Below, one piece after another: positions 1 to 29,962 of a DNA stretch of 64,000 nt (positions within the stretch are counted from its first letter, which is position 1; every line of letters begins with the position of its first letter). The position numbers were made by a program, and so were the translations under genes. The stretch is from Eutreptiella sp. 'Long Island Sound 2002' (Eukaryota; Euglenozoa; Euglenophyceae; Eutreptiales; Eutreptiaceae), in the NCBI GenBank assembly GCA_964036045.1, contig OZ038401.1, positions 34,572,910-34,636,909 on the forward strand, given 5' to 3'. The notes under the pieces are model-generated. The model did no database searches. It saw only the letters and a program-made list of their open reading frames with translations, and had not been told where the DNA came from.

Positions 1-3000
1 GCCCCTCCGTGAATTTTTTACCCCTCTGCGTGAATTGTTTGACCCCTGTGTGAATTATTTGACCCCTCCGTGAATTGTTTGACCCCTCCGTGATTTATTT
101 ACCCCCCTCCGTGACTTATTTGACCCCTGTGTGAATTATTTGACCCCTCCGTGAGTTGTTTACCCCCCTCCGTGAATTATATGACCCCTCTGTGAATTGT
201 TTACCCCCCTCCGTGAATTATTTGACCCCTCCGTGAATTATTTGACCCCTCCGTGAATTATTTACCCCCCTCCGTGAATCATTTGACCCCTCCGTGAATT
301 ATTTACCCCCCTCCGTGAATTATTCGACCCCTCCGTGAATTATTTGACCCCTCCGTGAATTATTTACCCCCCTCCGTGAATTATTTGACCCCTTTGTGAA
401 TTGTGTACCCCCCTTGGTGAATTATTTGACCCCTCCGTGAATTATTTACCCCCCTCCGTGAATTATTTGACCCCTCCGTGAATTGTTTACCCCCCTCCGT
501 GAATTATTTGACCCCTCCGTGAATTGTTTACCCCCCTCCGTGAATTATTTGACCCCTCCGTGAATTGTTTACCCGCCTCCGTGAATTATTTGACCCCTCC
601 GTGAATTGTTTACCCCCCTCCGTGAAATTTTTTACCCCTCCGTGAATTATTTACCCCCCTTCCGTAAATCATTTGACCCCTCCGTGAATTTTTTGACCCC
701 TCCGTGAATTATTTGACCCCTCCGTGAATTATTTGACCCCTCCGTGAATTATCCCCTCCCCTCCGTGAATTATTTCACCCCTCCGTGAATTCTTTGACCC
801 CTCCGTGAATTATTTACCCCCCTCCGTGAATTATTTGACCCCTCCGTGAATTATTTGACCCCTGCGTGAATTATTTACCCCCCTCCGTGAATCATTCACC
901 CCCCTCCGTGAATTATTTGACCCCTCCGTGAATTATTACCCCCCTTCCGTGAATTATTTCACCCCTCCGTGAATTGTTTACCCCCCTCCCTGAATTATTT
1001 GACCCCTCTGTGAATTATTTACCCCCCTCCGTGAATTATTTGACCCCCCTGTGAATTGTTTGACCCCTCCGTGAATTATTTGACCCCTCCGTGAATTATT
1101 TCCCCCCCTCCGTGAATTATTTGACCCCTCCGTGAATTGTTCAACCCCCTCCGTGAATTATTTGACCCCTCCGTGAATTATTTACCCCCCTCCGTGAATT
1201 ATTTGACCCCTCCGTGAATTGTTTGACCCCTCCGTGAATTGTTTGGCCCCTCCGTGAATTTTTTACCCCTCTGCGTGAATTGTTTGACCCCTGTGTGAAT
1301 TATTTGACCCCTCCGTGAATTGTTTGACCCCTCCGTGATTTATTTACCCCCCTCCGTGACTTATTTGACCCCTGTGTGAATTATTTGACCCCTCCGTGAG
1401 TTGTTTACCCCCCTCCGTGAACTATATGACCCCTCTGTGAATTGTTTACCCCCCTCCGTGAATTATTTGACCCCTCCGTGAATTATTTGACCCCTCCGTG
1501 AATTATTTACCCCCCTCCGTGAATCATTTGACCCCTCCGTGAATTATTTACCCCCCTCCGTGAATTATTCGACCCCTCCGTGAATTATTTGACCCCTCCG
1601 TGAATTATTTACCCCCCTCCGTGAATTATTTGACCCCTTTGTGAATTGTGTACCCCCCTTGGTGAATTATTTGACCCCTCCGTGAATTATTTACCCCCCT
1701 CCGTGAATTATTTGACCCCTCCGTGAATTGTTTACCCCCCTCCGTGAATTATTTGACCCCTCCGTGAATTGTTTACCCCCCTCCGTGAATTATTTGACCC
1801 CTCCGTGAATTGTTTACCCGCCTCCGTGAATTATTTGACCCCTCCGTGAATTGTTTACCCCCCTCCGTGAAATTTTTGACCCCTCCGTGAATTATTTACC
1901 CCCCTTCCGTAAATCATTTGACCCCTCCGTGAATTTTTTGACCCCTCCGTGAATTATTTGACCCCTCCGTGAATTATTTGACCCCTCCGTGAATTATCCC
2001 CTCCCCTCCGTGAATTATTTCACCCCTCCGTGAATTCTTTGACCCCTCCGTGAATTATTTACCCCCCTCCGTGAATTATTTGACCCCTCCGTGAATTATT
2101 TGACCCCTGCGTGAATTATTTACCCCCCTCCGTGAATCATTCACCCCCCTCCGTGAATTATTTGACCCCTCCGTGAATTATTACCCCCCTTCCGTGAATT
2201 ATTTCACCCCTCCGTGAATTGTTTACCCCCCTCCCTGAATTATTTGACCCCTCTGTGAATTATTTACCCCCCTCCGTGAATTATTTGACCCCCCTGTGAA
2301 TTGTTTGACCCCTCCGTGAATTATTTGACCCCTCCGTGAATTATTTCCCCCCCTCCGTGAATTATTTGACCCCTCCGTGAATTGTTCAACCCCCTCCGTG
2401 AATTATTTGACCCCTCCGTGAATTATTTACCCCCCTCCGTGAATTATTTGACCCCTCCGTGAATTGTTTGACCCCTCCGTGAATTGTTTGGCCCCTCCGT
2501 GAATTTTTTACCCCTCTGCGTGAATTGTTTGACCCCTGTGTGAATTATTTGACCCCTCCGTGAATTGTTTGACCCCTCCGTGATTTATTTACCCCCCTCC
2601 GTGACTTATTTGACCCCTGTGTGAATTATTTGACCCCTCCGTGAGTTGTTTACCCCCCTCCGTGAATTCTATGACCCCTCTGTGAATTGTTTACCCCCCT
2701 CCGTGAATTATTTGACCCCTCCGTGAATTATTTGACCCCTCCGTGAATTATTTACCCCCCTCCGTGAATCATTTGACCCCTCCGTGAATTATTTACCCCC
2801 CTCCGTGAATTATTCGACCCCTCCGTGAATTATTTGACCCCTCCGTGAATTATTTACCCCCCTCCGTGAATTATTTGACCCCTTTGTGAATTGTGTACCC
2901 CCCTTGGTGAATTATTTGACCCCTCCGTGAATTGTTTACCCCCCTCCGTGAATTATTTGACCCCTCCGTGAATTGTTTACCCCCCTCCATGAATTATTTG

Positions 3001-5128
3001 ACCCCTCCGTGAATTGTTTACCCCCCTCCTTGAATTATTTGACCCCTCCGTGAATTGTTTACCCGCCTCCGTGAATTATTTGACCCCTCCGTGAATTATT
3101 TACCCCCCTTCCGTGAATTATTTGAACCCTCCCGTGAATTGTTTGACCCCTCCGTGAATTATTTGACCCCTCCGTGAATTGTTTGACCCCTCCATGAATT
3201 ATTTACCCCCCTCCGTGAATTATTTGACGCCTCCGTGAATTATTTGACCCCTCCGTGAATTATTCCCCCCCCTCCGTGAATTATTTCACCCCTCCGTGAA
3301 TTGTTTGACCCCTCCGTGAATTATTTACCCACCTCCGTGACTTATTTGACCCCTGTGTCAATTATTTGACCCCTCCGTGAATTATTTACCCCCCTCCGTG
3401 AATTATTTGACCCCTCCGTGAATTGTTTACCCCCCTCCGTGAATTATTTGACCCCTCCGTGAATTATTTACCCACCTCCGTGACTTATTTGACCCCTGTG
3501 TCAATTATTTGACCCCTCCGTGAATTATTTACCCCCCTCCGTGAATTATTTGACCCCTCCGTGAATTGTTTACCCCCCTCCGTGAATTATTTGACCCCTC
3601 CGTGAATTGTTTGACCCCTCCGTGAATTGTTTGACCCCTCCGTGAATTATTTGACCCCTCCGTGAATTATCCCCCCCCCCCTCCGTGAATTATTTCACCC
3701 CTCCGTGAATTATTTGACCCCTCCGTGAATTATTTGACCCCTCCGTGAATTATTTACCCCCCTCCGTGAATTATTTGACCCCTCCGTGAATTGTTTGACC
3801 CCTCCGTGAATTATTTGACCCCTCCGTGAATTATTTGACCCCTCCGTGAATTCTCCCCTCCCCTCCGTGAATTCTTTCACCCCTCCGTGAATTGTTTGAC
3901 CCCTCCGTGAATTATTTACCCCCCTCCGTGAATTATTTGACCCCTCCGTGAATTTTTTGACCCCTCCGTGAATTATTTACCCCCCTCCGTGAATTATTTG
4001 ACCCCTCCGTGAATTATCCCCCCCCCTCCGTGAATTATTTCACCCCTCCGCGAATTGTTTGACCCCTCCGTGAATTATTTACCCACCTCCGTGACTTATT
4101 TGACCCCTGTGTGAATTATTTGACCCCTCCGTGAATTGTTTACCTCCCTCCGTGAATTATATGACCCCTCGGTGAAGTGTTTACTCCCCTCCGTGAATTA
4201 TTTAACCCCTCCGTAAATTTTTTACCCCCCTCCGTGAATTATTTGACCCCTCCGTGAATTATATAACCCCCTCCGTGAATTATTTGACCCCTCCGTGAAT
4301 TATTTACCCCCCTCGGTGAATTATTTGACCCCTCCGTGAATTATTTACCCCCTCCGTGAATTATTTGACCCCTCCGTGAATTATATGACCCCTCCGTGAA
4401 TTGTCTACCCCCGTCCGTGAATTATTTGACCCCTCCGTGAATTGTTTACCCCCCTCCGTGAATTATTTGACCCCTCCGTGAATTGTTTACCCCCCTCCGT
4501 GAATTATTTGACCCCTCCGTGAATTATTTACCCCCCTCCGTGAATGATTTGACCCCTCCGTGAATTATTTACCCCCCTCCTTGAATTATATGACCCCTCC
4601 GTGAATTGTTTACCCCCCTCTGTGATTTATTTGACCCCTCCGTGAATTATTTGACCCCTCCGTGAATTGTTTGACCCCTCCGTGAATTATTTGACCCCTC
4701 CGTGAATTATTTGACCCCTTAGCGACTCTCCCCTCCCCTCCGTGAATTATTTCACCCCTCCGTGAATTGTTTTACCCCTACGTGAATTATTTACCCCCCT
4801 CCGTGAATTATTTGACCCCTCCGTGAATTATTTGACCCCTCCGTGAATTATTTACCCCCCTCCGTGAATTATTTGACCCCTCCGTGAATTATTCCCCCCC
4901 CTCCGTGAATTATTTCACCCCTCCGTGAATTGTTTGACCCCTCCGTGAATTATTTACCCCCCTCCGTGAATTATTTGACCCCTCCGTGAATTGTTTACCC
5001 CCCTCGGTGAATTATTTCACCCCTCCGTGAATTGTTTACCCCCCTCCGTGAATTATTTGACCCCTCCGTGAATTATTTGACCCCTCCGTGAATTGTTTGA
5101 CCCCTCCGTGAATTATTCTACCCCCCGG
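1..5128. repeat. 20/21-bp minisatellite with 1,245-bp higher-order period
   Basis: Head-to-tail copies of a 20/21-bp unit of the form GACCCCTCCGTGAATTATTT, alternating with a variant carrying ACCCCCCTCC. Distinctive variant blocks recur exactly 1,245 bp apart: the opening block GCCCCTCCGTGAATTTTTTA is at 1, 1246 and 2491. The first two copies differ by only a few bases; the third follows them to about 3.08 kb and then diverges. A separate local duplication of about 142 bp lies near 3.33-3.6 kb. There is no gene in this stretch; the short ORFs are products of the repeat. Confidence 0.97.
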
Positions 5129-12316: not shown

Positions 12317-12321
12317 TGACT

Positions 12322-12346
12322 CTTAGGCGTCACAAGTTGCCCACCC
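12322..12346 (+). repeat. Element A left TIR, preceded by TSD TGACT
   Basis: 25 bp, perfectly inverted at 18,818-18,842. It is preceded by TGACT at 12,317-12,321, which is repeated in direct orientation after the right end. Confidence 0.93.
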
Positions 12347-12526
12347 TCTAGGACCCCGTATACGCGCGATTCGACAATATTCTACATTTCTACTTTGAGT
12401 ATGTTATTTGACGTATGTGACCAAAGTTGTTGGCAGAGCTGTGTGACACCCGTTGAAATACGTGTTGATGTGTTAGCCTTGTGTATCCCCGTCTTCTAGT
12501 GTGTTGTATTTGACATTTTTCTGAAG

Positions 12527-12827
12527 CTGGCCGAAATTTCGGCCAGGTTTTGGGTAACATTGCAAACAACTATGTGTATATGCAGTTTTTGACCCTTCTG
12601 GCCGAAATTTCGGCCAGCTTTTTGGTTTCATGGTGAATAGGCATAGTTATTTTCATTTTTCTTAGGGCTGGCCGAAATTTCGGCCAGCTTTTTGGTCTGT
12701 TCACTATTCAAGCACTTATATTCTGGTTTTTGGGCGGGCTGGCCGAAATTTCGGCCAGCTTTTCCTATTTTTGAACATTTAAGCAATTATTTCCCCTTTG
12801 AACACACCTGGCCGAAATTTCGGCCAG
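12527..12827. promoter_or_regulatory. Upstream array of five 20-bp palindromes, ~70-bp period
   Basis: Five perfect copies of CTGGCCGAAATTTCGGCCAG begin at 12,527, 12,598, 12,668, 12,739 and 12,808. Spacing is 71, 70, 71 and 69 bp. The sequences between them are only loosely similar (often CTTTTTGG after the palindrome), so the palindrome and its phase are what is conserved. The last copy ends about 70 bp before the ATG of the transposase-like gene. Possible roles are binding sites for transposase or for the ParB-like protein, a promoter, or an anti-silencing platform. Confidence 0.9.
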
Positions 12828-12898
12828 CTTGCAATTGTCGTTGTTCATGAGTATTACACCATACACTCCTACATAACTGTTTTCTTGTCTCAGCATTA

Positions 12899-15109
12899 AT
12901 GTCTTCTGCTATTATTGTCAATGTTGTACATGCTGCAGTTACTGGTGCTTTTGCTACTACAGCCAAAGGGCTGTTGCGAAATGCATTACGTGGTGGGACT
13001 CTGCAAAAGCTTTTGCAATTGTGCCTCTTGTTGCGGAAGAATCGCAGGAGCCGGCACTCCCTGACACAGTTGAAGGCCGCCGCCACTGAGAAGAAGCCCC
13101 CACGATGGTACATGACATTTTTGTCACAGTTCCATGCCCTATACTGCCTGCTGCGCCCTATGGCCCTCCCATACTCTAACTGTGGGTCTGGTTACAACTG
13201 GGGTATTATGTCCTGCCGCCAACGCCGTAAGGTAGGAGTCCTTGGTCAGTGTAACACTAAGCAGGAGTCCATTCACCATCGTGCTGGACTAGCAGCACAC
13301 AACTTGTGGAACACCATGCACCGTAGGCAAGTTTGTATATGGTTTGATAACCTGAGGCGTTACAGGTCGGGAGCTGATCCCCATTCACCCGACTTAACCC
13401 TAAACTGTACAGCTGTTGCTGTTTTGCACACTACTGCCCTACCTGCATACCGGGGTTTGCCGGAGCTAGCCGAAATTGAGGCCAGGGTACCAAAGGTTGC
13501 TGATGACATCTTTCGCTCACATAGAGCATTGTTTGATCGTATTGATGTTGCCAACCAAGGTATTCAGAGAGTTTGGGTTCGTGCTCCTTTGGATATTGCC
13601 AGAAAAAATGTTCGTTCCCTCAACTGGAGACCCTTTTTCCTGTCTGAGCTCCGCTCCGGCACACACAAAGAGCTTTTACAACTCGTGGTTGATTCGTCAT
13701 GTGTGGAACACCGCACCAGACACTGTGTTCCGCTGCTTGTGGACATGAAAATACACTTTGCCCTACTTAAGCTGTGTTATGGTGCTGCTTATGTTCCATG
13801 GAATGTACCACAATTACTGTTGGGTTTTCCTTTGGTGTACGGAGTATGGCATAGCTATAAGTATTGCGTTGAATTGATCTACAGGGCGTTCCTGCCGTTC
13901 ATTAAGTTTTTGGAGCAGGGGAACAGCCTTCAGGTTGGGTCTATCCTCCCTCGCAAGGTCAAGGTCATCCATATGGAGAAGACGTTGCTTGGACTCATGC
14001 TAGCCACATCATCCAATAGAGGCAGACTAGATGAGCGCGTCACTTCCCTGCTCAATAGCCAGCGGGATTTGACACCCATTCAGCGCAAGGGTTTGCGTAT
14101 GTTATTAGCCCTTAAGGCTTTGCTGTACACATACTGTCCAGCTGCTTTCAGCATTGGGACTTTGGTTCGTGAGTGCAACTGGGAGGGACGGGGGGCAGGT
14201 TCCGGTATTGTAGCTAAGCAAGCACTTGAGATGTCCCTACTGCTCATGCTGAACATCCTAAAGCCCGAGGAACAGTTAACCACGGAGTATGTGAAAACCA
14301 CCGTTGTTGCTCTTTTGTTTTGGAGTCAGTGGCATTCCGCCTCCCTAGGGTGTATTCACTGTGAGGAGCTGGGTGAGGCACTTCTGAGCCGGTTCTCAGC
14401 CCACTGTCGCCGCAACACTGCCTGTACTAGTGTCCAACAGTCGTCTGATTTATTTCTGACACTTCCCCCTGTCCAACCGAGAGAGAAAATTTTGCGTGGT
14501 GTGCTGACTGAGAGATCCGTGGCAATGTTCTCTGCCAATCTTAAACAATTCATCTTGACAGCCCATACACAGAGCCTGCCCATTTGTGTTCCCGTTCCGG
14601 ACTATAAAGTTGAGGTGAGAAGACTGGATGCGGTTGAGGATTTGGCGTTTGCCGGTACCATGTCTAGGACACGAATCACCACACACCGTTTAAAAGTGGT
14701 TTTGTTGCATGCAATGCAAAATCTGGTTGCGCGTACCAGGGTTCCTGAGGGTGTTGAGGATTTTTTACAGACAAATGCACCTGCCCGCACTGCTGCCGAG
14801 CAAGGGGTGTTGCGTACTGCACATGCTTCTATTCGCGCTGCCAACCGTGCACCGCCTGCTGCTGCTGCTGTTGCTCCTGGTGGAATTGCCTTGCCCCCAA
14901 AGCCACCCCCGAAGCCCCGAGCCAGAGGCCCCTCAGTACCCCCCCCGCCCCCCCCCCGCCCAGTACCCCCCCCCGCCCTTGATGATTCCATTGCTATCGA
15001 CTCTTGTGATAGTGACCAGGATATTGATTGTGATGCAGACAGCGTTGCCTCCTTTGAAGCCCTAGATGAGGCGGAACACATCGGTGTGGATACCCAGGAC
15101 TGGGACTGA
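12899..15109 (+). CDS. Transposase-like protein of element A (P1), 736 aa
   Basis: Intronless ORF starting about 70 bp after the palindrome array and ending in TGA. It is homologous along most of its length to the broken ORF of element B (21,225-23,449), which makes it the element's core protein. Visible features in order: a basic segment (about 46-72; KNRRSRH, EKKPPRW); a conserved W148-F-D-N motif; LLVDMKIHF with D282, then YG and W317-H-x-Y-K; E489-E-L-G-E493-A-L-L-S-R; a proline/arginine-rich linker (about 664-694); and an acidic tail (about 695-736) rich in D, E and S. D282 and E489/E493 lie in segments conserved between the two paralogues and could be RNase-H-fold catalytic residues, but that is inference. 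The GEALLSR segment faintly recalls KDZ-type transposases. I do not recognise a named family. Its neighbour downstream is the ParB-like gene in the same orientation. Confidence 0.85.
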   Translation: MSSAIIVNVVHAAVTGAFATTAKGLLRNALRGGTLQKLLQLCLLLRKNRRSRHSLTQLKAAATEKKPPRWYMTFLSQFHALYCLLRPMALPYSNCGSGYNWGIMSCRQRRKVGVLGQCNTKQESIHHRAGLAAHNLWNTMHRRQVCIWFDNLRRYRSGADPHSPDLTLNCTAVAVLHTTALPAYRGLPELAEIEARVPKVADDIFRSHRALFDRIDVANQGIQRVWVRAPLDIARKNVRSLNWRPFFLSELRSGTHKELLQLVVDSSCVEHRTRHCVPLLVDMKIHFALLKLCYGAAYVPWNVPQLLLGFPLVYGVWHSYKYCVELIYRAFLPFIKFLEQGNSLQVGSILPRKVKVIHMEKTLLGLMLATSSNRGRLDERVTSLLNSQRDLTPIQRKGLRMLLALKALLYTYCPAAFSIGTLVRECNWEGRGAGSGIVAKQALEMSLLLMLNILKPEEQLTTEYVKTTVVALLFWSQWHSASLGCIHCEELGEALLSRFSAHCRRNTACTSVQQSSDLFLTLPPVQPREKILRGVLTERSVAMFSANLKQFILTAHTQSLPICVPVPDYKVEVRRLDAVEDLAFAGTMSRTRITTHRLKVVLLHAMQNLVARTRVPEGVEDFLQTNAPARTAAEQGVLRTAHASIRAANRAPPAAAAVAPGGIALPPKPPPKPRARGPSVPPPPPPRPVPPPALDDSIAIDSCDSDQDIDCDADSVASFEALDEAEHIGVDTQDWD

Positions 15110-15201
15110 TTTCTGTTTGCAGCTGTGTTTGTCACTGTGGTATGGGTTCTGCCACGCATTGCCAGTGATTTTGGTGTGTCTATTTGCTGTTTCATGTTTT
15201 T

Positions 15202-15360
15202 CTGGCCGAAATTTCGGCCAGACTTGTTGTTTTGTCATATGGCTACCCCCAGAACACAAATGACTTAAGGTTCTGGCCGAAATTTCGGCCAGCCTCTCAG
15301 AATGGTATTTGTACACAGTGGTTTGACATGCAGAGCAGTGCTGGCCGAAATTTCGGCCAG
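15202..15360. promoter_or_regulatory. Intergenic array of three palindromes
   Basis: Perfect copies of the 20-bp element A palindrome begin at 15,202, 15,273 and 15,341 (spacing 71 and 68). They lie between the TGA of P1 and the start of the second gene, keeping the ~70-bp phase of the upstream array. Confidence 0.9.
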
Positions 15361-15479
15361 GTTATCCGAATTTCCTGTCAGGCAGTCCGTTTTGGTCCTT
15401 TTTTGGTTGATCTGTGCTTGTTATTTGCTATGTGGGAACTCTCCCCTTCATGAAATGTTGCCCTGTAGCCCTTTATTTT

Positions 15480-18050
15480 ATGACTGAGCCTGGAGGGGTA
15501 TCGCAGGACATGGCTGTTTCGCCAGATGTTGAGCCTGCAGCAGACAATGGGCAATCTCAAGTGCAATCCCAGTTTGAAGAGGACCAGGCGAGCACAGAGG
15601 GACTTCAAAAGAAGCCTAAGGCCGCACCAAAGAAAAATTCATCCTCCTCCATCAAGTTATCCGACTGGGTTACGTCAACGACGAAAATAAAGGTTCGGTG
15701 GGATCAGATTATTATCGACCACGACCGAAAATTTGGGCAGGTCCGTAGGATTTCGGATGATCGCGTGCAACGCCGCTACGACGATCTGAAGGCAGCCCCG
15801 CCTGTGGATTACATCCAGGATCTTCTTTTTTATAAAGTCACTCGTATGTGTGTTGTGGTATTCTTCTCGATAGTACCGTTTTCGCGTCTGAATTTTCGAC
15901 CCTGCTGTTACGAATATTCATGTTGCACAGCCACTCACTGGGTTCTGTTGGGGGGTCAGCATGTTTACACTGCTGACCAAAAACACAAGACCGAATTTGA
16001 GATGAAAAATATGGAGACTCCGGATTGGACCCTGGTATTTGGTGGTTACGAAGTCAAACAGGACTGCCCCCTGCGGACTAGGCGCCGGCTTGCAGGCTTA
16101 CATCAAATCCAGACCACTGCTGGCTCAGCATCCACCACATCGGAGCGAATGTCCCTACTCCTGGATAGGCTTGAGGATGAGGATGCCTATTAGTACACCC
16201 TGTACCATCACATTACTGTTATGCTTGAAGAGTGTGGTGTTACTGCCGAGGAAGGCACTGTGGTGTGTTTCGTTTATTAATTCGGTTTTGTCGATCGACC
16301 AGGCCGAAATTTCGGCCAGCTTCTGTGTTCCACATGTTCTCCTGTGCAGAGTGCTGTTGCCAAACGGTGGGGTGGCGTTGGGCGTTTGGTGAAATTCGGG
16401 GGTCTTCCTTCAGTAGACGCCATGGCAGCCATGGAAAAGCGTGGACTACATCCCGCACTGGGTACGTTCAAGGAAGTGGAAGGCATCACGCCTGACCGAC
16501 TTCGCGAGATCGTAGGTTATATGGATGGGACAAAAAGTACCCTACCTGGTCTCAAAAAAATTATAAAAGATGTTAAAAAGGCCCAGATGTGGTCCTGGCA
16601 CATTCTTCGTCCCGAGGCGGCTACCAATGGGCTTGTGAACAACACCAGAGGTATGTTTTGGTCAAACAGGGGTTTGTATTCGAATAATAATTTCGGCCAG
16701 CTTGTGTGTCGTTCAATTAATGCACAATAGGAGCCCACCCTGTGCTACCACCTGTCTGCAGCTACACTTGGTACTATCGAGATGGCCAAAAGGCAGTGCG
16801 CTATTGCATCACACCTGAAGGTAGCCTATGGCAGTTGGACCTGGACTGAAGAAAACCCCTGGCCCCCGTGGTCAGCAGTAATTAAGGCCCCTCTTTGGAA
16901 GGAACCCAAATATGAGGGGTTGCGGGGATTGTTGCAGAAGCCTGTTGCTAAGCCTGTTTGTGAAAAATCTGATACTGGTCTGGTCAGTATCTAGTGTGCT
17001 AGGGAGTCCCTCGTTGAGTCAAGCACAGGCAAACTCATTGCAGAGTCAGGCCGTGTGGAACTGATGGCAATGCCTTGTGGAGTCCCTGTTCCCAGTATCA
17101 TTAGTTCACTGTCCTTTGCTGCTTGTGTCATTGAGGTGCCCCGCCTCTATACAGCTGGTTTGCATAACCTGGTTGCGCAGCTGCTTTTGTCCGGTGTGCC
17201 TGTGTTCATTGCGGGTGAGTCTGCTGATGTGAAAGCCACTGTTGCTGCTTTGAAGGCCACTGTGGCTGAGGATATGTATCAGTGTGATGTTGCACTTTAC
17301 AATTTGTCAAGCAAGACCCCGCTGTACACTTCTACGTCCCATCTGGTTTCCATTTGTTCTGCCACTGCCTTTGATAACAGGCTGCCCCGTTACGTGGCTT
17401 TTACTGAAGGACCCATGTCGTCTGTGATGCCTGTTGAAATATTCTCATTTCTTTTGAGCCTGGTTCCGGTCCCAGAACGGGCAGGCAACTGGTTTTTGCT
17501 GGGGACTCTGTCTGTGTATTTTGCAGGCATGATGTCTACCAGGTTTTCCAAGGACTGTAATGTTGTGTGTGCCCTTTTGGGTGAGGAGACTGTTGTGCCC
17601 GATGACTTTGTTCACCTCATCAGAGCAGGTATCACCAACGCCGACACGTGCCCCCCCAAGTCATGGGAGGATGTGTACCACGACTTGGGGGCAGGTTTTC
17701 CTGTGGATTGTTCTGGGGTTAGGTATGTAGATGAGGATCCTGAGGAGCAAGATGGGGAGGCAGAGTCGCAACCAGAGACACACACTCCAAAGAAGAAACC
17801 CAAAACTGCCCCTGCCCCCTCACCCAGTGGCACGCAGTGCGCTCAGGCCACCCCAGCTTCCTCCCCAGGCACTGTTGCCCCTACTGGCAAAGGTATGAAT
17901 ACTTTTGTGAATCATTTTTCACCATCCCAGGGTGGAAACACACAGTCACAGAACTCTGCCACTGCCAAGTCTGGTGCTGCAGCCCCTGCCAAGCAGCCTG
18001 CTAACACAGGTGCTAAGAAGCCCCGTGCATCTGGTCTGCGCAAGCGCTAA
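15480..18050 (+). CDS. Four-exon accessory gene of element A with ParB/sulfiredoxin-like motif; two in-frame TAG
   Basis: The model is join(15480..15843, 15931..16262, 16350..16650, 16762..18050). Every junction is GT-AG and phases agree (1, 0, 1), giving 762 codons ending in TAA. Exon 1 starts with a low-complexity, Q/E/K-rich segment. Around residues 72-136 the pattern resembles the ParB/Srx fold: IKVRWDQIIIDHDRKF leads to THWVLLGGQHVYTA, whose GGQHxxxA (about 129-136) resembles the GxHRxxA nucleotide-binding box. The rest is unassigned; the C-terminus has KKKPK and a basic KKPRASGLRKR end, likely nuclear. TAG codons interrupt codon 209 (16,191-16,193) and codon 410 (16,992-16,994), yet protein-like sequence and correct phase continue on both sides. 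So this copy is either nonsense-mutated or read through. Introns 2 and 3 carry element A palindromes. Confidence 0.7.
16300..16319. promoter_or_regulatory. Element A palindrome inside intron 2
   Basis: AGGCCGAAATTTCGGCCAG with the full 16-bp core GGCCGAAATTTCGGCC at 16,302-16,317, inside intron 2 (16,263-16,349). Intron 3 (16,651-16,761) holds a half copy, AATTTCGGCCAGCTT, near 16,687-16,701. Confidence 0.85.
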
Positions 18051-18089
18051 TGCCAGTCCTACTGCTTATATTGCCTGTCAGCATGAAGT

Positions 18090-18413
18090 CTGGCCGAAAT
18101 TTCGGCCACCATGCAGTCCTCAGCCTCTTCAGCCTTTTATTATTGTGTTTCCCCATAGGCACTGCAAAAGTTTGCTTTGATTCGTCAAGTGGCAAGTATT
18201 TGCTTGCAATTGAGTATATTATGTTGCACACCCTGTGCAAATGTCACTGCTCCCGTGTTCCTTGCTCATGTCTACTGTCTCAGGTACCCATTTCAGTGAT
18301 CATATTCGGAGTTTCGATGGACGTGGCCGAAATTTCGGCCAGCTTAGGCCTGTCTGTCAAATAGGACCATGTGTTTGGACATTTTTCGAAGAGTTGGCCG
18401 AAATTTCGGCCAG
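18090..18413. promoter_or_regulatory. Downstream palindromes of element A (three copies)
   Basis: Copies with the intact 16-bp core lie at 18,092-18,107, 18,325-18,340 and 18,396-18,411. The last two are 71 bp apart, the same phase as the upstream array. The outer bases are slightly degenerate. They lie between the TAA of the ParB-like gene and the right TIR. Confidence 0.88.
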
Positions 18414-18817
18414 GTTGGTTAAAATAGGAAATACAAGTACATGCTTTGGGATAGTTTTCTGTGTGCTTCAATGAAAGGTATGTTTGGGGTTCCCTCATCT
18501 GTGGTGTATAGGGGGGTTCTGTGATCAACCTCGAACAAAGGGGAGAGAAAAATAGCCCCCCCCCCCCCCCCCCCACACACACACTGGAATGCAGTGGTCT
18601 AAATGTAAAACAACACTATATTTTGGTGATTGAATGTCTTTATTTTGAAAATCTGTGTGTTTCCAGAAATGCAAATAATGGCATATATTTGAAATACACA
18701 CCTTGTTTTTGCATGTTGCCACCAGGGGGGTTTGGGTACCCAAAAAATAACACCTCTTTTCACATACTTTCCCCCTCATTACAACATGGACTTCCGTGGG
18801 CCATAGCGCCAGGTGGG
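18414..18817. other. Right subterminal region of element A, no gene
   Basis: Non-coding, with a C-run and short CA repeat at about 18,555-18,585. It leads to the right TIR at 18,818-18,842. Confidence 0.6.
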
Positions 18818-18842
18818 GGGTGGGCAACTTGTGACGCCTAAG
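18818..18842 (-). repeat. Element A right TIR, followed by TSD TGACT
   Basis: Perfect 25-bp inverse of 12,322-12,346, followed immediately by TGACT at 18,843-18,847. Just outside lies an ACTGGCC-rich partial palindrome (about 18,853-18,875). Confidence 0.93.
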
Positions 18843-19251
18843 TGACTTAAGCACTGGCCAGGCCACTGGCCAAATGGCAAATGAACGCCTTTATGCGTTT
18901 ATTTTTCGAAAAATGAGTTTTTGAGGGGGATAACCGTTGTTTATCAACGTTTATTGGTATTGACATTCGTGCATTCATTGCTGGTGGTTTTTGTACCCTG
19001 TGTGACGTTTTTTTAGAGCATTTGTGCGTTTGTGCATGTTTGAGGGTATCAAAGATGGAATGTGGTGCATGTAAGGGTGAGTAGCATTGTGTGTCGGCTG
19101 GCATGGTGCATCATAGTGGGAAGATCTAGGATGTGGGTCATGGCATGAATGGACACACGGACACGCCATGTACACTCATTCATGCCCCGCATTCATGTCA
19201 TGTGCATGTGTGCAGGTGTGTCATTAACATTTTCTATTGTTCCGTTTCGTT

Positions 19252-20333: not shown

Positions 20334-20711
20334 AGCTATGTGTATAGCGACCTAGTCGGCTATCAGACATCACACATCAGACTTTTATGGACCATCACCC
20401 CCAACCCCCCCCCCCCCACCCAAACACCCTTTCTAACCCCCCCCCCCCCCCGTGTCAGACTTCGCCCCCCCCCCCCCCCGTGTCCCCCCCAATATCAGAC
20501 TTGTCCCATTGTCTTAGGCCACGCAAACTGCCCACCCCGGTGGCACACTTTTGCCCGGTTCTATACCCAAAAAGAGCAGTGTAAAAAACTCCCCCTTTTT
20601 GAACGTGTATTTTCGCGGCCGATGAAGTTAGGGGTTCAAAACACCCTTTCTACACTACTACTTCATGATGATTGAAAATGCTGATCTCAAAAGTATGTTT
20701 CCCATGATTGC

Positions 20712-21068
20712 AGCTGGGGCCAGCACCTTCCTTGACGAAAAGTACTTGTGGGATGTCCCGCAATTACATTTGTTGGTGATATTGAATCGTGCACATGTTG
20801 GTTACTATAGTCACCGCGTATTGGACATGTCTTGTTACTTTGTATCTTTGGTATCAAGTTTATCATTGAAGCAGCTGGGGCCAGCACCTTTGCAAGCAAT
20901 TTCACCTTTCCTTGGTTCTCTTTGGCAGAAAGGTGCGGGTGCCAGCACCTGCTGACTCAAATGGTCTTCTCGAATCCCCCTTTGGCTCAAAGTAGCTGGT
21001 GCCAGCACCTTTCAATGCAATCGAGTCTCTGAGATGATGTTCCGGACTATGAGTGCTGGCACCAGCAC
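20712..21068. promoter_or_regulatory. Element B palindrome array, ~60-bp period
   Basis: Sites at 20,712-20,728, 20,873-20,889, 20,931-20,950, 20,994-21,010 and 21,053-21,068. Measured at the shared CAGCAC they lie at 20,721, 20,882, 20,943, 21,003 and 21,063, so the last four are spaced 61, 60 and 60 bp. The site at 21,053 is a perfect 16-bp palindrome, GTGCTGGCACCAGCAC; the others are near-palindromic variants such as AGCTGGTGCCAGCACCT. The array ends about 155 bp before the transposase-like ATG, as in element A. Confidence 0.82.
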
Positions 21069-21224
21069 CAACTCCAGCGAGCAACCTGGTTAGTACCATT
21101 CCCATATCCATTCCACCGATGTTTATCTTCATAAGGTACGTGCATCTCATTGAAGGATAGGGAGTGTGCTGTGTTTTGCCACCATGTGCATCGTGTCTTT
21201 TACTTGCATCACCAGACTTTTGTC

Positions 21225-23449
21225 ATGAAATTTTCCTACTCCGTTGTTCGGCATCTACTACGTACTGGACATTATTCAAATGGGTCTTCTTTATTACGTG
21301 ATGCCCATGCTGGCGAGCCGGGGGTTCTGATGTTAGTGCACCTATTGGCACAGGTCCGCTGCAACCGTCGTACTCGTAAGACTGTACCTCAAATTGTTGT
21401 TGCAAGTAAGCAAAATAGGAAGCCTCGTTGGTTGTCCGTTTTCACGAAACAGTTATATATGCTATGGTCTGTCCTGCACAAGGCTGCACGTCCAACTAGT
21501 AAGGTATCACGGAAAGACACACTTACAGGTCAACCTTTGACGCAGGGTGTTCGCCGTGTTATAGCAAACTGTGGTGTTGTTACCAATCGCCCTGTACCAC
21601 TAACTGCTAAGGCTACCTCGGCTGCACAACAACTGTGGTCGTCCATGTCAAACCACCAAATGGCTATGTGGTTTGATAACTGGTGGTGGAAGAGGTCTAC
21701 TCCTACCCAGAGCATCCCAATCCCAGCATGAACCTGACGGTGTTTGCAATGTTGCGAACTACAGACCTATGTCCCTTCCCTGGGCATCCATCTTTGGTAA
21801 CCGTGTTGGGACAGCTGGACTCAGCTGTGCATTCCACTGCTACTGCACTTCGCTCCTTGAACGATGTTACACGGGTTTCGCTTGATGCGGAGCCTGAGTT
21901 TATTCGTGTTCCCCTCGATATTAAACGGGACAACGTTAGGTCACTACAATTCCGGCCACTGTTGTTGACCGATTTGACTACCGGTGGGATCCTTGATTTG
22001 CTACACATTCTACAAGAGATCCAGGACATACAGCGGCACACCCGGCGCCCCATGCCCCTAATAATTGATATGAAAATACATTTTTATTTACTGCGTTTTT
22101 TGTACGGGGAGTCATATGTGCAGTACAATTTCCATGAGCATCTGTCCATGTTGCCTTGTATGTACAGTGCGTGGCACCCTTACAAACACACTGCCCTTGA
22201 GGTATACAAGGCCTTCTTTCCTATCTTTGCTGCTGTGGAAAACTGTAATTTGCAAGTGGGTGCCATGGTGTACCACCACCGTAAGCTGCTCCACATTGAG
22301 AAAGTGGTAGCAGCACTACTACTTGTAGGTAACTCTGTACGTGTACGTATTCAACGCAAATTGGAATGGTTGCAGCTGGCACCAGCATCTCTCTCATCAG
22401 TTCAAGTGGATACAGCTACCCGTTGGTTGCAAGGACTGCAGTCCTTGCTGTTTAGTTATGTCCCTGCGCTTTTTGCGTTAGGCGTACAGGTACGCAACTG
22501 CAACTGGTCAGGGCGACAGCCAGGCACTGGTCAGGCAGCCCACACAGTTTTGCAATGGAGCCTGTTGCTACATGTGTTTCTTACTGGCGATTGGGACGCC
22601 AAAACAGAATACGTTCGCAGTTTGAGTGTCACACTTGCAGTGTGGCAGGAGTGGATGAGTAATACCCTAGGTTGTCTCTTTGCTAAAGAGATTGGTGAGG
22701 CCCTGTTGTCCCGGCTCTCCGCCCGGGTCAAGCTGCATCCAACTGCATTATCGCAACCCGCTCTAATGGACTTGTTCCTTAGCATGCCACACCCGCGCAT
22801 GGGCACCAAAGCCCTTCGCGGCAAGCTACGCACTGGTCTGTGCGATCTTTTTCGAGCACGCCTCCGTCACTTTATTGCCTGGTGTACCCGTCCCCAGCTT
22901 TTGTTTGCCCCATTTACTACAGCTAAAACCACTGCTTTTGTTGGCCTTCTACCTGAAGGACACACATTTCCCAAGCCCATCCCTGATTCTGTTAATGAGG
23001 CTGCTCTGCGAAAGGTTTTTCGCAGGAGTGTGCTGTTATTATTATCCAACCGGTCCCCTCCGGAAGGTGTTACTGAGTATTTGGATCAATGCAATTTTAG
23101 GAGAGACCCTGCAGAGGTTGCACAGCTCACTAGCCTGAGGGAACGGTTCCGCACACGGAACGTCAGTGGCTCTGTCCATACGAAGGGCAGCGCACATCGC
23201 AGTCAATTAATCCCCGACAGCGGCATCCGCTTCGCTACTACTGACATGGCACTGGTAAATTGCGTACTTGTTCCAAAGCCCTGGAAGGAGACGGCCGTCT
23301 CAAATGATCAATTTTCCGTGACTGGTCAGTACACGTGCCAGACTTTGATTCCATTGCATCCAGACCCAACAGACCGAACAGAAAACAGTGCGACAGACAA
23401 CAGACAACGGTGTGTGCGCAATGTGCAGCGAGGAAAGCAGGAACAATAG
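21225..23449 (+). pseudogene. Transposase-like protein of element B (P2), frameshifted
   Basis: Paralogue of P1. The N-terminal part (from ATG 21,225) contains a basic region (CNRRTRK, NRKPRW) and MWFDN near 21,669. Shortly after, between about 21,672 and 21,725, the reading frame changes near a GGT-rich run; the second frame continues without interruption to TAG at 23,447. The shared landmarks are all present: PLIIDMKIHFYLLRFLYG, WHPYKHTALEVYKAFFP, NCNWSGR, and EIGEALLSRLSA. The C-terminus differs from P1: it lacks the proline-rich linker and acidic tail and ends in ENSATDNRQR...GKQEQ. The frameshift suggests this copy is inactive unless a small intron or programmed shift restores it. An internal near-consensus element B palindrome lies at 22,372-22,390. 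Confidence 0.8.
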
Positions 23450-23457
23450 GAGGGAAT

Positions 23458-23469
23458 GCTGGCACCAGC
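23458..23469. promoter_or_regulatory. Element B palindrome just after P2
   Basis: GCTGGCACCAGC (within AATGCTGGCACCAGCTTCT), a perfect 12-bp palindrome with the element B core, begins 8 bp after the P2 stop. Confidence 0.75.
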
Positions 23470-23559: not shown

Positions 23560-23777
23560 GGGAGGCAAACTGAATTCGTCTTCCTCTTGAAGCAAAACCA
23601 AGGGGGGGGGGGTGCATCACTCATGGTATCCACATCAACTACCAGATGCCCCAGGGAGCCAAGGGAATCAGCACTGGACACGGATATGTGGTCATCCTCT
23701 ACCCCCACAAACCGATCTGGTGCATCAGCATCATCAGCATCAGGGGCACCCTTACCCTTGCCCTTCCCCCCACTGTA
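23560..23777 (-). pseudogene. C-terminal fragment of a related transposase (minus strand)
   Basis: On the minus strand the frame reads GKGKGKGAPDADDADAPDRF followed by an acidic, serine-rich stretch (DDHISVSSADSLGSL) and then VVDVDTMSD. This resembles the P1 tail of element A (DDSIAIDSCDSDQD..., GVDTQDWD) in composition and motif order. Poly-C runs after it obscure the stop. The fragment begins abruptly where the palindromic satellite starts at about 23,778. It looks like the end of a third family member in inverted orientation, cut off by the satellite. Confidence 0.5.
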
Positions 23778-26700
23778 GACCCCCCAAATATTTGACGGAC
23801 ATACATCCGTCAAACATTTCGGGGGTCTACACCCCCCAGATAACTGACGCATGGGCATGCGTCAAATATTTGACGGACATACATCCGTCAAATATTTTTG
23901 GGGTGTAGACCCCCCAAATATTTGACGGACATACATCCGTCAAATATTTGGGGGGTCTACACCCCCGAGATAACTGACGCATGGGCATGCGTCAAATCTT
24001 TGACGGACATACATCCGTCAAAAATTTTGGGGGTGTAGACCCCCGAAATATTTGACGGATGTATGTCCGTCAAATAATTTGGGGGTGTAGACCCCCCCAA
24101 TATTTGACGGACATACATCCGCCAAATATTTTGGGGGTCTACACCCCCCAGATAACTGACGCATGGGCATGCGTCAAATATTTGACGGACATGCATCCGT
24201 CAAATATTTTTGGGGTGTAGACCCCCCAAATATTTGACGGACATACATCCGTCAAATATTTTTGGGGTGTAGACCCCCCAAATATTTGACGGACATACAT
24301 CCGTCAAATATTTGGGGGTGTAGACCCCCCAAATATTTGACGGATGTATGTCCGTAAAATATTTTGTTGGTATAGACCACCCAAATATTTGACAGACATA
24401 CATCCGTCAAAGATTTCGGGGGTCTACACCCCCCAGATAACTGACGCATGGGCATGCGTCAAATATTTGACGGACATGCATCCGTCAAATATTTTGGGGG
24501 TGTAGACCCCCCAAACCTTCGACGGACATACATCCGTCGAATATTTTTTGGGGTGTAGACCCCCCAAATATTTGACGGACATACATCCGTCAAATATTTT
24601 TTGGGCTGTAGACCCCCCAAATATTTGACGGACATACATCCGTCAAATATTTCGGGGGTCTACACCCCCTAGATAACTAACGCATGGGCAGGCGTCAAAT
24701 ATTTGACGGACATACATCCGTCAAATATTTGGGGGTGTAGACCCCCCAAATATTTGACGGGTGTATGTCCGTCAAACATTTTGGGGGTATAGACCCCCCA
24801 AATATTTGACGGACATACATCCGTCAAACATTTCATGGGTCTACACCCCCCAGATAACTGACGCATGGGCATGCGTCAAATATTTGACGGACATGCATCC
24901 GTCAAATATTTTGGGGCTGTAGACCCCCCAAATATTTGACGGATGTATGTCCGTCAAATATTTTGGGGGTGTAGACCCCCCAAATATTTGACGGACATAC
25001 ATCCGTCAAATATTTTTTGGGCTGTAGACCCCCCAAATATTTGACGGACATACATCCGTCAAATATTTCGGGGGTCTACACCCCCTAGATAACTGACGCA
25101 TGGGCCTGCATCAAATATTTGACGGACATGCATCCGTCAAATATTTTAGGGGTGTAGACCCCCCAAATATTTGACGGATGTATGTCCGTCGAATATCTTG
25201 GGGGTGTAGACCCCCCAAATATTTGACGGATGTATGTCCGTCAAACATTTTGGGGTGTAGACCCCCAAAATATTTGACGGACATACATCCGTCAAATGTT
25301 TCGTAGCTCTACACCCCCCAGATAACTGACGCATGGGCATGCGTCAAATATTTGACGGACATGCATCTGTCAAATAGTTCGGGGGTGTAGACTCCCCGAA
25401 TATTTGACGAATGTATGTCCGTCAAATATTAGGGGGGTCTACACCCCAAAAAAATTTTGACGAATGTATGTCCGTCAAATATTTGGGGGGGTCTACACCC
25501 CCAAAACATTTGACGGACATACATCCGTCAAATATTTCGGGGGTTTACACCCCCAAGATAACTGACGCATGGGCATGCGTCAAATATTTGACCGACATGC
25601 ATCCGTCAAATATTTTGGGGGTGTAGACCCCCCAAATATTTGACGGATGTATGTCCGTCAAATGTTTTGGGGGTGTAGCACGCCCCAGATAACTGACGCA
25701 TGGGCATGCGTCAAATATTTGACGCACATACATCCGTCAAATATTTCGGGGGTCTACACCCCCCAGATAACTAACGCATGGGCATGCGTCAAATATTTGA
25801 CGGACATACATCCATCAAATATTTTGAGGGTGTAGACCCCCCAAATATTTGACGGACATACATCCGTCAAATATTTCGGGGGTCTACACCCCCCAGATAA
25901 CTAACGCATGGGCATGCGTCAAATATTTGACGGACATACATCCGTCCAATATTTTGGGGTTGTAAACCCCCCAAATATTTGACGGACATACATCCGTCAA
26001 ATATTTTGGGGGTCTACACCCCCCAGATAACTAACGCATGGGCATGCGTCAAATATTTGACGGACATACATCCGTCAAAAATTTTTGGGGGGTAGACCCC
26101 CCAAATATTTGACGGACATACATCCGTCAAATATTTTTCGGGTCTACACCCCCCAGATGACCGACGCATGGGCATGCGTCAAATATTTGACGGACATGCA
26201 TCCATCAAATATTTTGGGGGTGTAGACCCCCCAAATATTTGACGGACATACATCCGTCAAATATTTCGGGGGTCTACACCCCCCAGATAACTAACGCATG
26301 GGCATGCGTCAAATATTTGACGGACATACATCCGTCAAATATTTTGGGGTTGTAGACCCCCCAAATATTTGACGGACATACATCCGTCAAACATTTCGGG
26401 GGTGTACACCCCCCAAATAACTAACGCATGGGCATGCGTCAAATATTTGACGGACATACATCCGTCAAATATTTTTGGGGTGTAGACCCCCCAAATATTT
26501 GACGGACATACATCCGTCAAATATTTTGGGGGTCTACACCCCCTAGATAACTGACGCTTGGGCATGCGTCAAATATTTGACGGACATGCATCCGTCCAAT
26601 ATTTTGGGGATGTAGACTCCCCAAATATTTGACGGACATACATCCGTCAAACATTTCGGGGTTCTACACCCCCCAGATAACTAACGCATGGGCATGCGTC

Positions 26701-26812
26701 AAATATTTGACGGACATACATCCATCAAATATTTTGGGGTTGTAGACCCCCCAAATATTTGACGGACATACATCCGTGAAATATTTTGGGGGTGTAGACC
26801 CCCCAAATATTG
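23778..26812. repeat. Palindrome-rich satellite, 130-bp higher-order period
   Basis: Built from three hairpin modules: TTTGACGGACATACATCCGTCAAA (9-bp stem), GACGCATGGGCATGCGTC, and GGGGTGTAGACCCC-type stems joined by AAATATTT. The module GATAACTRACGCATGGGC recurs exactly every 130 bp at 25,766, 25,896, 26,026, 26,156 (as GATGA), 26,286, 26,416 (as AAATAA), 26,546 and 26,676; the left half is less regular. Short ORFs on both strands (SVKYLGGLHP...) are repeat artefacts. Confidence 0.96.
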
Positions 26813-29800
26813 TGGGGGCCTATGGGGGCCTGTGGGGACCTATCAGGACCTATGGGGACCTATGGGGGCCTATGGGGGCCTATGGGGGGCCATGGGGACC
26901 TATAGGGGCCTATGGGGACCTTTGGGGGCTTATGGGGACCTTTGGGGAGCTATGGGGACCTATGGGGACCTATGGGGACCTATGGGGACCTAAGGGGACC
27001 TATGGGGGCCTATGGGGACCTATGGGGACCTATGGGGACCTATGGGGACCTATGGGGACCTATGGGGACCTATGGCGACCTATGGGGGCCTATGGGGACC
27101 TATGGGGACCTATGGGGGCCTATTGGGGCCTATGGGGACCTATGGGGACCTTTGGGGGTCTATGGGAACCTATGGTGGCCTATGGGGACCTATGGGGGTC
27201 TATGGGGACCTATGGGGACCTATGGGAGCCTTTTGGCGCCTTTGGGGACCTATGGGGACCTATGGGGGCCTATGGGGGCCTATGGGGGCCCATGGGGACC
27301 TATGGGGCCCTATGGGGGCCTATGGGGCTCTATGGGGACCTATGGGGGCCTATGGGGACCTTTGGGGGCCTATGGGGACCTATGGGGACCTATGGTGGCC
27401 TATGGGGGTCTATGGGGACCTATGGGGGCCTATTGGCACCTTTGGGGACCTGTGGGGACCTATGGGGGCCTATGGGGGCCTATGGGGGCCCATGGGGACC
27501 TATGGGGACCTTTGGGGGCCTATGGGGACCTATGGGGGCCTATGGGGACCTTTGGGGGCCTATGGGGACCTATGGGGACCTATGGTGGCCTATGGGGGTC
27601 TATGGGGACCTATGGGGGCCTATTGGCACCTTTGGGGACCTATGGGGACCTATGGGGGCCTATGGGGGCCTATGGGGGCCCATGGGGGCCCATGGGGACC
27701 TATGGGGGCCTATGGGGCTCTATGGGGACCTATGGGGGCCTATGGGGACCTTTGGGGGCCTATGGCGCCCTATGGGGGCCTATGGGGGCCTATGGGGCTC
27801 TATGGGGACCTATGGGGGCCCATGGGGGCCTATGGGGCTCTATGGGGACCTATGGGGGCCCATGGGGGCCTATGGCGGCCTATGGGGACCTATAGGGGCC
27901 TATGGGGACCTTTGGGGACCTATGGGGACCTTTGGGGGCCTATGGGGGCCTGTGGAGACCTATGGGGACCTATGGGGGTCTAAGGGGCCCTATGGGGGTC
28001 TATGGGGACCTACGGGGACCTAGGGTGGCCTATGGGGGTCTATGGGCACCTATGGGGGCCTATTGGCACCTTTGGGGACCTATGGGGACCTATGGGGGCC
28101 TATGGGGGCCCATGGGGACCTATGGGGCCCTATGGGGGCCTATGGGGGCCTATGGGGGCCCATGGGGACCTATGGGGCCCTATGGGGGCCTATGGGGCTC
28201 TATGGGGACCTATGGGGGCCTATGGGGACCTTTGGGGGCCTATGGGGACCTATGGGGACCTATGGTGGCCTATGGGGGTCTATGGGGACCTATGGGGGCC
28301 TATTGGCACCTTTGGGGACCTATGGGGGCCTATGGGGGCCTATGGGGGCCTATGGGGGCCCATGGGGACCTATGGGGGCCCATGGGGCTCTATGGGGACC
28401 ATTGGGGGCCTATGGGGGCCTGTGGGGCCCTATGGGGGCCTATGGGGCCCTATGGGGGCCTATGGGGCTCTATGGGGACCTATGGGGGCCTATGGCGGCC
28501 TATGGCGGCCCATGGGGACCTATAGGGGCCTATGGGGACCTTCGGGGACCTTTGGGGGCCTATGGGGGCCTGTGGGGACCTATGGGGACCTATGGGGACC
28601 TATGGGGGCCCATGGGGACCTATGGGGGCCTATCGGGGCCTATGGGGGCCTATGGGGGCCTATGGGGACCTATAGGGGCCTATGGGGACCTATGGGGACC
28701 TTTGGGGGCCTATGGGGACCTTTGGGGGCCTATGGGGGCCTATGGGGACCTATGGGGGCATATGGGGACCTATGGGGACCTGTGGGGGCTTATGGGGACC
28801 TGTGGGGACCTATGGGGACCAATGGGGGCTTGTGGGGACCTATGGGGGCCTATGGGGGTCTATGGGGACCTATGGGGACCAATGGGGGCTTGTGGGGACC
28901 TTTGGGGGCCTATGGGGGCCATTGGGACCTATGGTGACCTATGGGGACCTATGGGGGCCTATGGGGGCCTATGGGCACCTTTGGGGGCCTATGGGGGCCT
29001 ATTGGGGCCTATGGGGGCCTATGGGCGCCTATGGGGGCCTACGGGGGCCTATTGGCACCTTTGGGGACCTATGGGCATCTTTGGGCACCTTTGGGGGTCT
29101 ATGGGCACCTTTGGGGACCTATGGGGACCTTTGGGCACCTTTGGGGACCTATAGGGGTCTATGGGGACCTATGGGGACCTATGGGGGTCTATGGGGACCT
29201 ATGGGGACCTATGGGGGTCTATGGGGGTCTACGGGGACCTTTGGGGACCTATGGGGACCTTTGCGCACCTTTGGGGACCTATGGGCACCTTTGGGGACCT
29301 ATGGGCACCTATGGGGATGGGGGCCGATGGGGACTCATCGGCATCTAGGGGGACCTATGGGGGCCTATGGGAGCCTATGGGGGCCTATGGGGAGCTATGG
29401 GGGCCTATGGGGGCCTATGGGGACCTTTGGGGGTCTATGGGGACCTATTGGGGCCTATGGGGATCTATGGGGACCTATTGGGGCCTATGGGGACCTATGG
29501 GCACCTATGGGGATGGGGGCCGATGGGGACTCATCGGCATCTAGGGGGACCTATGGGGGCCTATGGGGGCCTATGGGGGCCTATGGGGGCCTATGGGGAC
29601 CTTTGGGGGTCTATGGGGACCTATTGGGGCCTATGGGGGCCTATGGGCACCTTTGGGGGCCTATGGGGGCCTATTGGGGCCTTTGGGGGCCTATGGGGAC
29701 CTATGGGGACCTATGGGGGCTTGTGGAGGCCTGTGGGGACCTATGGGGACCTATGGGCACCTTTCGGGACCTATGGGGACCTATGGGGCCGATGGGGACT

Positions 29801-29962
29801 CATTGGCATCTAGGGGGACCTTTGGGGACCTATGGGCACCTCTGGGGACCCATGGGCACCTTTGGGGGCCTATGGGGGCCTATGGGGGCCTATGGGGACC
29901 TATGGGGCCCTATGGGGACCTATGGGCACCTTTGGGGGCCTATGGGGGCCTATGGGCACCTT
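26813..29962 (+). repeat. 10-bp G-rich minisatellite, ~3.1 kb
   Basis: About 310 copies of TATGGGGACC / TATGGGGGCC. Unit length stays at 10 bp for almost the whole array with few indels, so all plus frames are open over hundreds of codons (translations such as GAYGDLWGPM). These long ORFs are not genes. GGGG runs recur every 10 bp on the plus strand. A 23-bp segment GATGGGGACTCATCGGCATC plus TAG recurs at about 29,325, 29,523 and (with CATTGG) 29,792, marking a small higher-order duplication near the 3' end. Confidence 0.97.

Follow-up and report, generated by a model that had tools for sequence, protein, structure and literature searches.

The 64,000-nucleotide stretch analysed here (the window, whose own numbering is used throughout) lies on contig OZ038401.1 of Eutreptiella sp. 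'Long Island Sound 2002' (assembly GCA_964036045.1, positions 34,572,910 to 34,636,909, forward strand) and carries a 6,521-bp element, family A, that is a real and recently mobile DNA transposon with two genes, P1 and P2. It is probably a eukaryotic cut-and-paste transposon of an apparently undescribed superfamily, in which P1 would be the transposase and P2, the product of a spliced gene, would bind the element's own phased palindromes. The sequence data show the ends of the element, its target-site duplications (TSDs), empty sites related to its insertion sites, its recent amplification and a P2 splice frame that is open in several copies; they also show that three families (A, B and C) are laid out alike and differ in their palindromes.

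Ends, copies and insertion sites of family A

The element is bounded by a perfect 25-bp inverted pair, and TGACT directly abuts both of its ends (coordinates in Table 1). The terminal inverted repeat (TIR), allowing three mismatches, was never expected by chance in 100 shuffles. The 2.28-Gb genome was searched with the left 279 nt of the element, yielding 886 first-look candidates, of which 40 places were scored: the window at 100% identity and 39 others at 99%. The first 20 of these 39 were fetched and analysed, giving 21 loci together with the window. Both TIRs were present in all 20 fetched copies (no mismatch at the left end and at most one at the right), each flanked by a perfect 5-bp TSD that differed from copy to copy and was in no case extendable to 6 bp; with the window included, 21 of 21 copies carry a 5-bp duplication. 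The 25-bp TIRs and 5-bp TSD had been claimed, and a genome search with the element end suggested, in a previous reading made from the letters of this DNA alone (hereafter the sequence-only reading), and both features recurred in every copy fetched. Eleven of the 20 are full length (6,474–6,546 bp) and nine are internally deleted (1,432–5,685 bp), and no strict target sequence was seen at the insertion sites.

The joined flanks of the 21 loci were then compared with the fetched DNA, where the hits represent paralogous, not allelic, sites. Empty sites, which the sequence-only reading had proposed to look for, were found in related form: five of the 21 loci (L010, L012, L021, L027 and L028) have at least one that is ungapped where the flanks meet, and L014, L016 and L025 have gapped ones only; for the remaining 13 none was detected within the stricter limit, one weaker hit for L026 falling below it. 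Ungapped hits made up three of four at L012, two of four at L027 and 17 of 17 at L028 (one of them within L028 itself). L028 is a copy nested in another copy of the same family, and all 17 hits show the uninterrupted site. L014 is apparently nested too, its junction being blurred by poly-C gaps.

Mean pairwise identity among the 12 full-length copies (window included) was 98.0% (range 96.8–98.9%). Within P1, 30 variable columns were common to two or more of these copies and 205 were singletons, with codon positions about evenly represented. Purifying selection within family A was not visible in codon positions (counted for P2 with a provisional exon 2) or in the palindromes. The identity and the singleton pattern fit a scenario in which a small number of sources amplified recently and the copies then decayed neutrally.

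P1, the presumed transposase

P1 found no match in Pfam, NCBIfam or PHROGs, and PDB returned weak hits only (E 0.02 in the proline-rich tail; vinculin at E 0.24 with a profile). The sequence-only reading, which could name no family for the transposase-like protein, was upheld in the libraries searched. No title listed in searches of an open-licence literature library names the element, although a short stretch of its end sequence occurs in three listed papers (PMC7349173, PMC3088725 and PMC10714783). That P1 is part of a larger family, as had been suggested from its paralogue in the window (21680–23449; 37% identical over 393 amino acids), proved correct: searches of a protein collection, each scoring only about 8,000 candidates, returned 22 relatives with the single query and 81 with a profile, all from ‘ena' sources, and one P1 cluster represents 267 member sequences. 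The outlying relatives P0026 and P0027 are on short contigs (2,150 bp and 36% identical; 2,608 bp and 28% identical, respectively); a family search with P0027 gave Tht1 at E 0.079, under the cut-off. Of 197 pattern matches in IMG/VR and 139 in GTDB genomes, none was confirmed, and phages yielded none. A virus, phage or prokaryote origin of P1, with no relative in any of these three collections, was accordingly rejected.

D282, E490 and E493 are each conserved in 16 of 17 aligned P1 proteins, and D232, D282, E490 and E493 are identical in the five lineages compared, as is D150 in all four whose sequences reach that position. Other residues conserved across the lineages compared are H318, E360, E463, C485 and R498, while position E489 is K in the window paralogue and E in the family B copy L041. 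AlphaFold models of P1 (29 sequences) and of its residues 110–600 (26 sequences) reached a mean predicted local distance difference test score (pLDDT) of 54.8 and 49.6, respectively. In the second, weak model, strands precede D150 and D282, and a helical stretch is followed by a helix that begins near E490–E493; this predicted order is compatible with an RNase-H core plus helical insert and serves as a lead only. Of the RNase-H fold with D282 and E489 or E493 that the sequence-only reading had envisaged, the fold itself is not shown by the two weak models, whereas D282 and E493 are indeed conserved.

Alternatively, P1 may be a very divergent member of hAT, KDZ (Kyakuja, Dileera, Zisupton), CMCT/Transib (CMCT comprising EnSpm, Transib, Plavaka and others) or P, beyond the reach of hidden Markov models, and the element a new branch of one of these groups, which is possible but on balance doubtful. 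The CMCT transposase has an RNase-H domain with an insert before the last acid, and hAT elements have a helical insertion and make duplications of 5–8 bp; the order of the conserved acids in P1 and the extended helical segment ahead of the last of them resemble the layouts of hAT, KDZ and Transib. Yet P1 gave no meaningful match in Pfam, NCBIfam or PDB, and hAT is disfavoured by the absence of any hAT domain hit in Pfam. KDZ are likewise eukaryotic DNA transposons, some with accessory genes, but their duplications are 7–8 bp long according to PMC12730594, and the length of the duplications in all 21 copies here speaks against them. For the CMCT clade, the same source gives duplications of 2–5 bp, a range that includes the 5 bp found here, along with C(2)C and H(3-4)H motifs and termini that are mostly CA..TG, whereas all three families here end in CTTAGG..CCTAAG and C485 is the only cysteine conserved between D282 and E493, so that P1 has no CMCT C(2)C motif.

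P2, the spliced second gene

P2 comprises four exons (Table 1) with a frame of 761 amino acids, which is open in 5 of the 12 full-length copies with GT-AG at all three introns, and interrupted by stops in the other seven, two of which also have a changed acceptor. Both genes are open in one of the 12; in another full-length copy P2 is open and P1 is 723 amino acids long with a shifted tail, and in the window copy P1 is open and P2 contains two stops. The sequence-only description of the transposon as complete therefore holds for the ends and for P1, and fails for P2. In P0099 the sequence flanking intron 2 is conserved and the intron itself is not, as judged by eye. The start codon of P2 is uncertain because related open reading frames (ORFs) replace the first methionine. 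Two earlier models were discarded: three separate ORFs (15411–16193, 16281–16730 and 16995–18050), since other copies show one continuous frame, and a 385-amino-acid model, in which exon 2 had been ended too soon to avoid a stop and the stop in exon 4 had been taken as the end.

P2 matched no family in Pfam, NCBIfam or PHROGs; the earlier of these searches used the 385-amino-acid model and later ones included ORFs of other copies. Pieces of P2 gave only E 0.33 and 1.4 in PDB, E 0.3 or worse against phages and E 0.1 or worse against plasmids; a P2 piece from family B gave a helix-turn-helix (HTH) model at E 0.092, under the cut-off, and E 0.07 in PDB. No ParB match was found with family A P2 and its relatives in Pfam, NCBIfam or PHROGs (no profile–profile comparison), or with the family B piece in Pfam or NCBIfam, and a methyltransferase was never returned in P2 family searches. 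The sequence-only reading had proposed a ‘spliced ParB-like accessory gene': the gene does read as spliced, with one continuous frame in other copies, while the likeness to ParB, whose sole basis was a GGQH/SGQH stretch picked out by eye, was rejected as unproven in the absence of a profile match.

Palindrome arrays and sister families

The 18-mer TGGCCGAAATTTCGGCCA occurs 12 times in the window within two mismatches (11 exact and one with a single mismatch), where none is expected, and all 12 occurrences fall inside the element. They form phased groups at intervals of 68–71 bp, five at the left (+208, +279, +349, +420 and +489) and three in the middle, and the last two right-hand sites are also 71 bp apart. 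The phased array reported by the sequence-only reading is therefore well founded. All five left palindromes are kept in 20 of the 21 copies, internally deleted ones included, and L013 has four. An unbiased palindrome scan with 200 shuffles counted 10 in family A against a maximum of seven, exceeding all shuffles.

The window paralogue of P1 belongs to a truncated copy of a second family, B, whose left end is at 20513, 1.7 kb to the right of the family A element. This fragment carries a frameshifted P1 (21135–21731 and 21680–23449), shares 19 of 24 bases with family A at its left end and has five GCTGGNNCCAGC sites near that end plus three more; these eight are among the 12 found in the window, against 3.9 expected (maximum of 100 shuffles, 9). 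Genome searches scored 74 places out of 6,665 first-look candidates for family B and 73 out of 7,860 for family C, the first-look lists being loose and possibly overlapping between families. The family B copy L041 is 6,975 bp long, with ends CTTAGGCCACGCAAACTGCCCGCC, the TSD CCAAA, a P1 frame of 768 amino acids, split ORFs judged by eye to be P2-like, and 14 GCTGGNNCCAGC sites within one mismatch, those at the left being at +201, +362, +423, +483 and +543. Family C is represented by P0018, which is 47% identical to P1 and matches this genome at 100%; most of its 77 matches carry stops, which marks it as older. Its copy L042, chosen for a frame without a stop, is 2,642 bp long with TIRs agreeing at 22 of 24 positions and the TSD AAATG; on the left it carries GGGCGAAATTTC sites at +209, +278, +347 and +458 when up to three mismatches to the family A site are allowed, and one of these is a full palindrome. 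Common to the three families are CTTAGGC termini, 5-bp TSDs and left palindromes that are similarly placed and different in sequence.

A broader proposition, for and against which we see the case as evenly poised, is that these elements constitute a new superfamily, represented in this one genome by three or more families, each pairing an unplaced transposase with a spliced reader of a family-specific palindrome (phased at about 60–71 bp) beside the left end, and that site and reader have co-evolved between families while the position of the array stayed nearly fixed.

Proposed mechanism and its alternatives

As the probable account of the element, P1 would be a DDE-type transposase that recognizes ends of the form CTTAGGC...TGCCCACC, cuts the element out and integrates it through staggered cuts, which would generate the 5-bp duplications. 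P2 would be a dimeric, sequence-specific DNA-binding protein occupying the phased palindromes, one group of which separates the left end from P1 and another P1 from P2; its binding may control both element genes, mark the left end for the transposition complex, or do both.

Several observations weigh against this account. The copies were picked by a near-identical left end, so the sample is biased to young elements with intact left ends, and a single full copy stands for each of families B and C. The palindromes of family A are no more conserved than their surroundings: variable columns number 20 of 216 in the palindromes, 34 of 552 in the noncoding stretch at the left and 258 of 2,211 in P1. 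In the unbiased scan, the family B count (8) equalled the shuffle maximum and the family C count (5) fell short of its maximum of 7. The libraries searched revealed no homology between P2 and a DNA-binding family. For P1, Foldseek with both weak models gave best E values of 0.43 and 0.48 against PDB, neither meaningful, and the second model places an extra strand and helix ahead of D282. With models that are not confident and no Foldseek match, the RNase-H fold is a guess based on order and on conserved acids.

Rather than taking a direct part in transposition, P2 might act through the palindromes as a VANC-like anti-silencing factor that keeps the chromatin of the element open, a role we consider somewhat unlikely. 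In VANDAL elements with VANC and in Spm with TnpA, clustered family-specific motifs are read by an element-encoded protein; the comparison is of how the systems work, as no sequence relation was found and the motifs here are palindromes phased at about 60–71 bp. The sites beside both gene starts, differing between families at similar left positions, recall the VANC pattern, while P2 shows no homology to any such protein in the libraries searched, and the family B site has no CpG in its defined positions, so that a CpG-based mark would not be general. The nearest printed idea found, in PMC12477816, is the algal transposon Sola1-1_Ec32 of Ectocarpus, whose ParB–methyltransferase accessory gene encodes a protein proposed to bind and modify its own transposon; P2 differs in matching neither ParB nor, in its family searches, a methyltransferase.

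It is unlikely that the palindromes serve as subterminal binding sites of P1 itself and that P2 has another role. The left array (+208 to +489), the strongest, is indeed subterminal and is the one so consistently kept, but palindromes are also intergenic and intronic, and L010, which retains only 257 bp at its right end, lacks the right-hand sites, though that deletion may postdate insertion.

An endogenized virus or Maverick-like self-synthesizing element, for which the multiple genes and the potentially origin-like repeats might speak, is highly improbable given the 5-bp duplications and 25-bp ends, the lack of Maverick/Polinton polymerase, integrase or capsid hits in family searches of the element proteins and the lack of P1 relatives in viral contigs or phages.

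Other features of the window

Table 1. Positions of the family A element, its parts and the family B fragment in the window.
Feature	Position	Strand	Remark
TSD TGACT, left	12317..12321	.	read in window
Left TIR, 25 bp	12322..12346	+	also in 20/20 other fetched copies
Left array, five GGCCGAAATTTCGGCC palindromes, spacing 69–71 bp	12529..12825	+	five in 20/21 copies
P1, 736 amino acids, presumed transposase	12899..15109	+	ORF and alignment
Middle array, P1/P2 intergenic, three palindromes spaced 71 and 68 bp	15203..15359	+	
P2 exon 1, start codon uncertain	15480..15843	+	
P2 exon 2, one stop in window copy	15931..16262	+	
Palindrome inside P2 intron 2	16302..16317	+	
P2 exon 3	16350..16650	+	intron 2 flanks conserved in P0099 by eye
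P2 exon 4, one stop in window copy	16762..18050	+	
Right-hand palindromes (three) at 18091, 18324 and 18395	18091..18412	+	
Right TIR, 25 bp	18818..18842	-	
TSD TGACT, right	18843..18847	.	read in window
Family B left-end fragment	20513..23469	+	own TIR; no right end found, right limit uncertain

The window also contains several satellites. A 20-bp unit, CCCCTCCGTGAATTATTTGA, is repeated about 250 times at 2–5124 with a strong strand skew; a second satellite, whose 52/130-bp units are based on TTGACGGACATACATCCGTCAA palindromes, occupies 23774–26811, starting just past the family B fragment; and about 316 copies of the decamer TGGGGACCTA fill 26813–29961, which probably explains the long overlapping ORFs there. 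Another decamer, GGAATTATGG, or its complement, is found in arrays at 34035–34577, 44976–45127 and 45578–45874. A GC-rich (~70%) LINE-like (long interspersed nuclear element) retrotransposon lies on the minus strand at 49555–52596, with hits to reverse transcriptase (PF00078) and, near the threshold, to an endonuclease (PF03372). Elsewhere in the genome, TTAGGG telomere repeats were seen at 5 of 12 chromosome ends inspected (L030, L032, L036, L038 and L040), and two of the 12 consist of N.

Implications

New transposase superfamilies are rare finds, and they are potential gene-transfer tools and sources of domesticated genes. The element described here is young and abundant, with 40, 74 and 73 places scored for families A, B and C, respectively, from far larger first-look lists, and since some copies keep one or both genes open, a test in cells may be feasible. 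The three families, alike in layout and unlike in their palindromes, constitute a natural experiment on the joint change of a mobile element's DNA-binding protein and its site.

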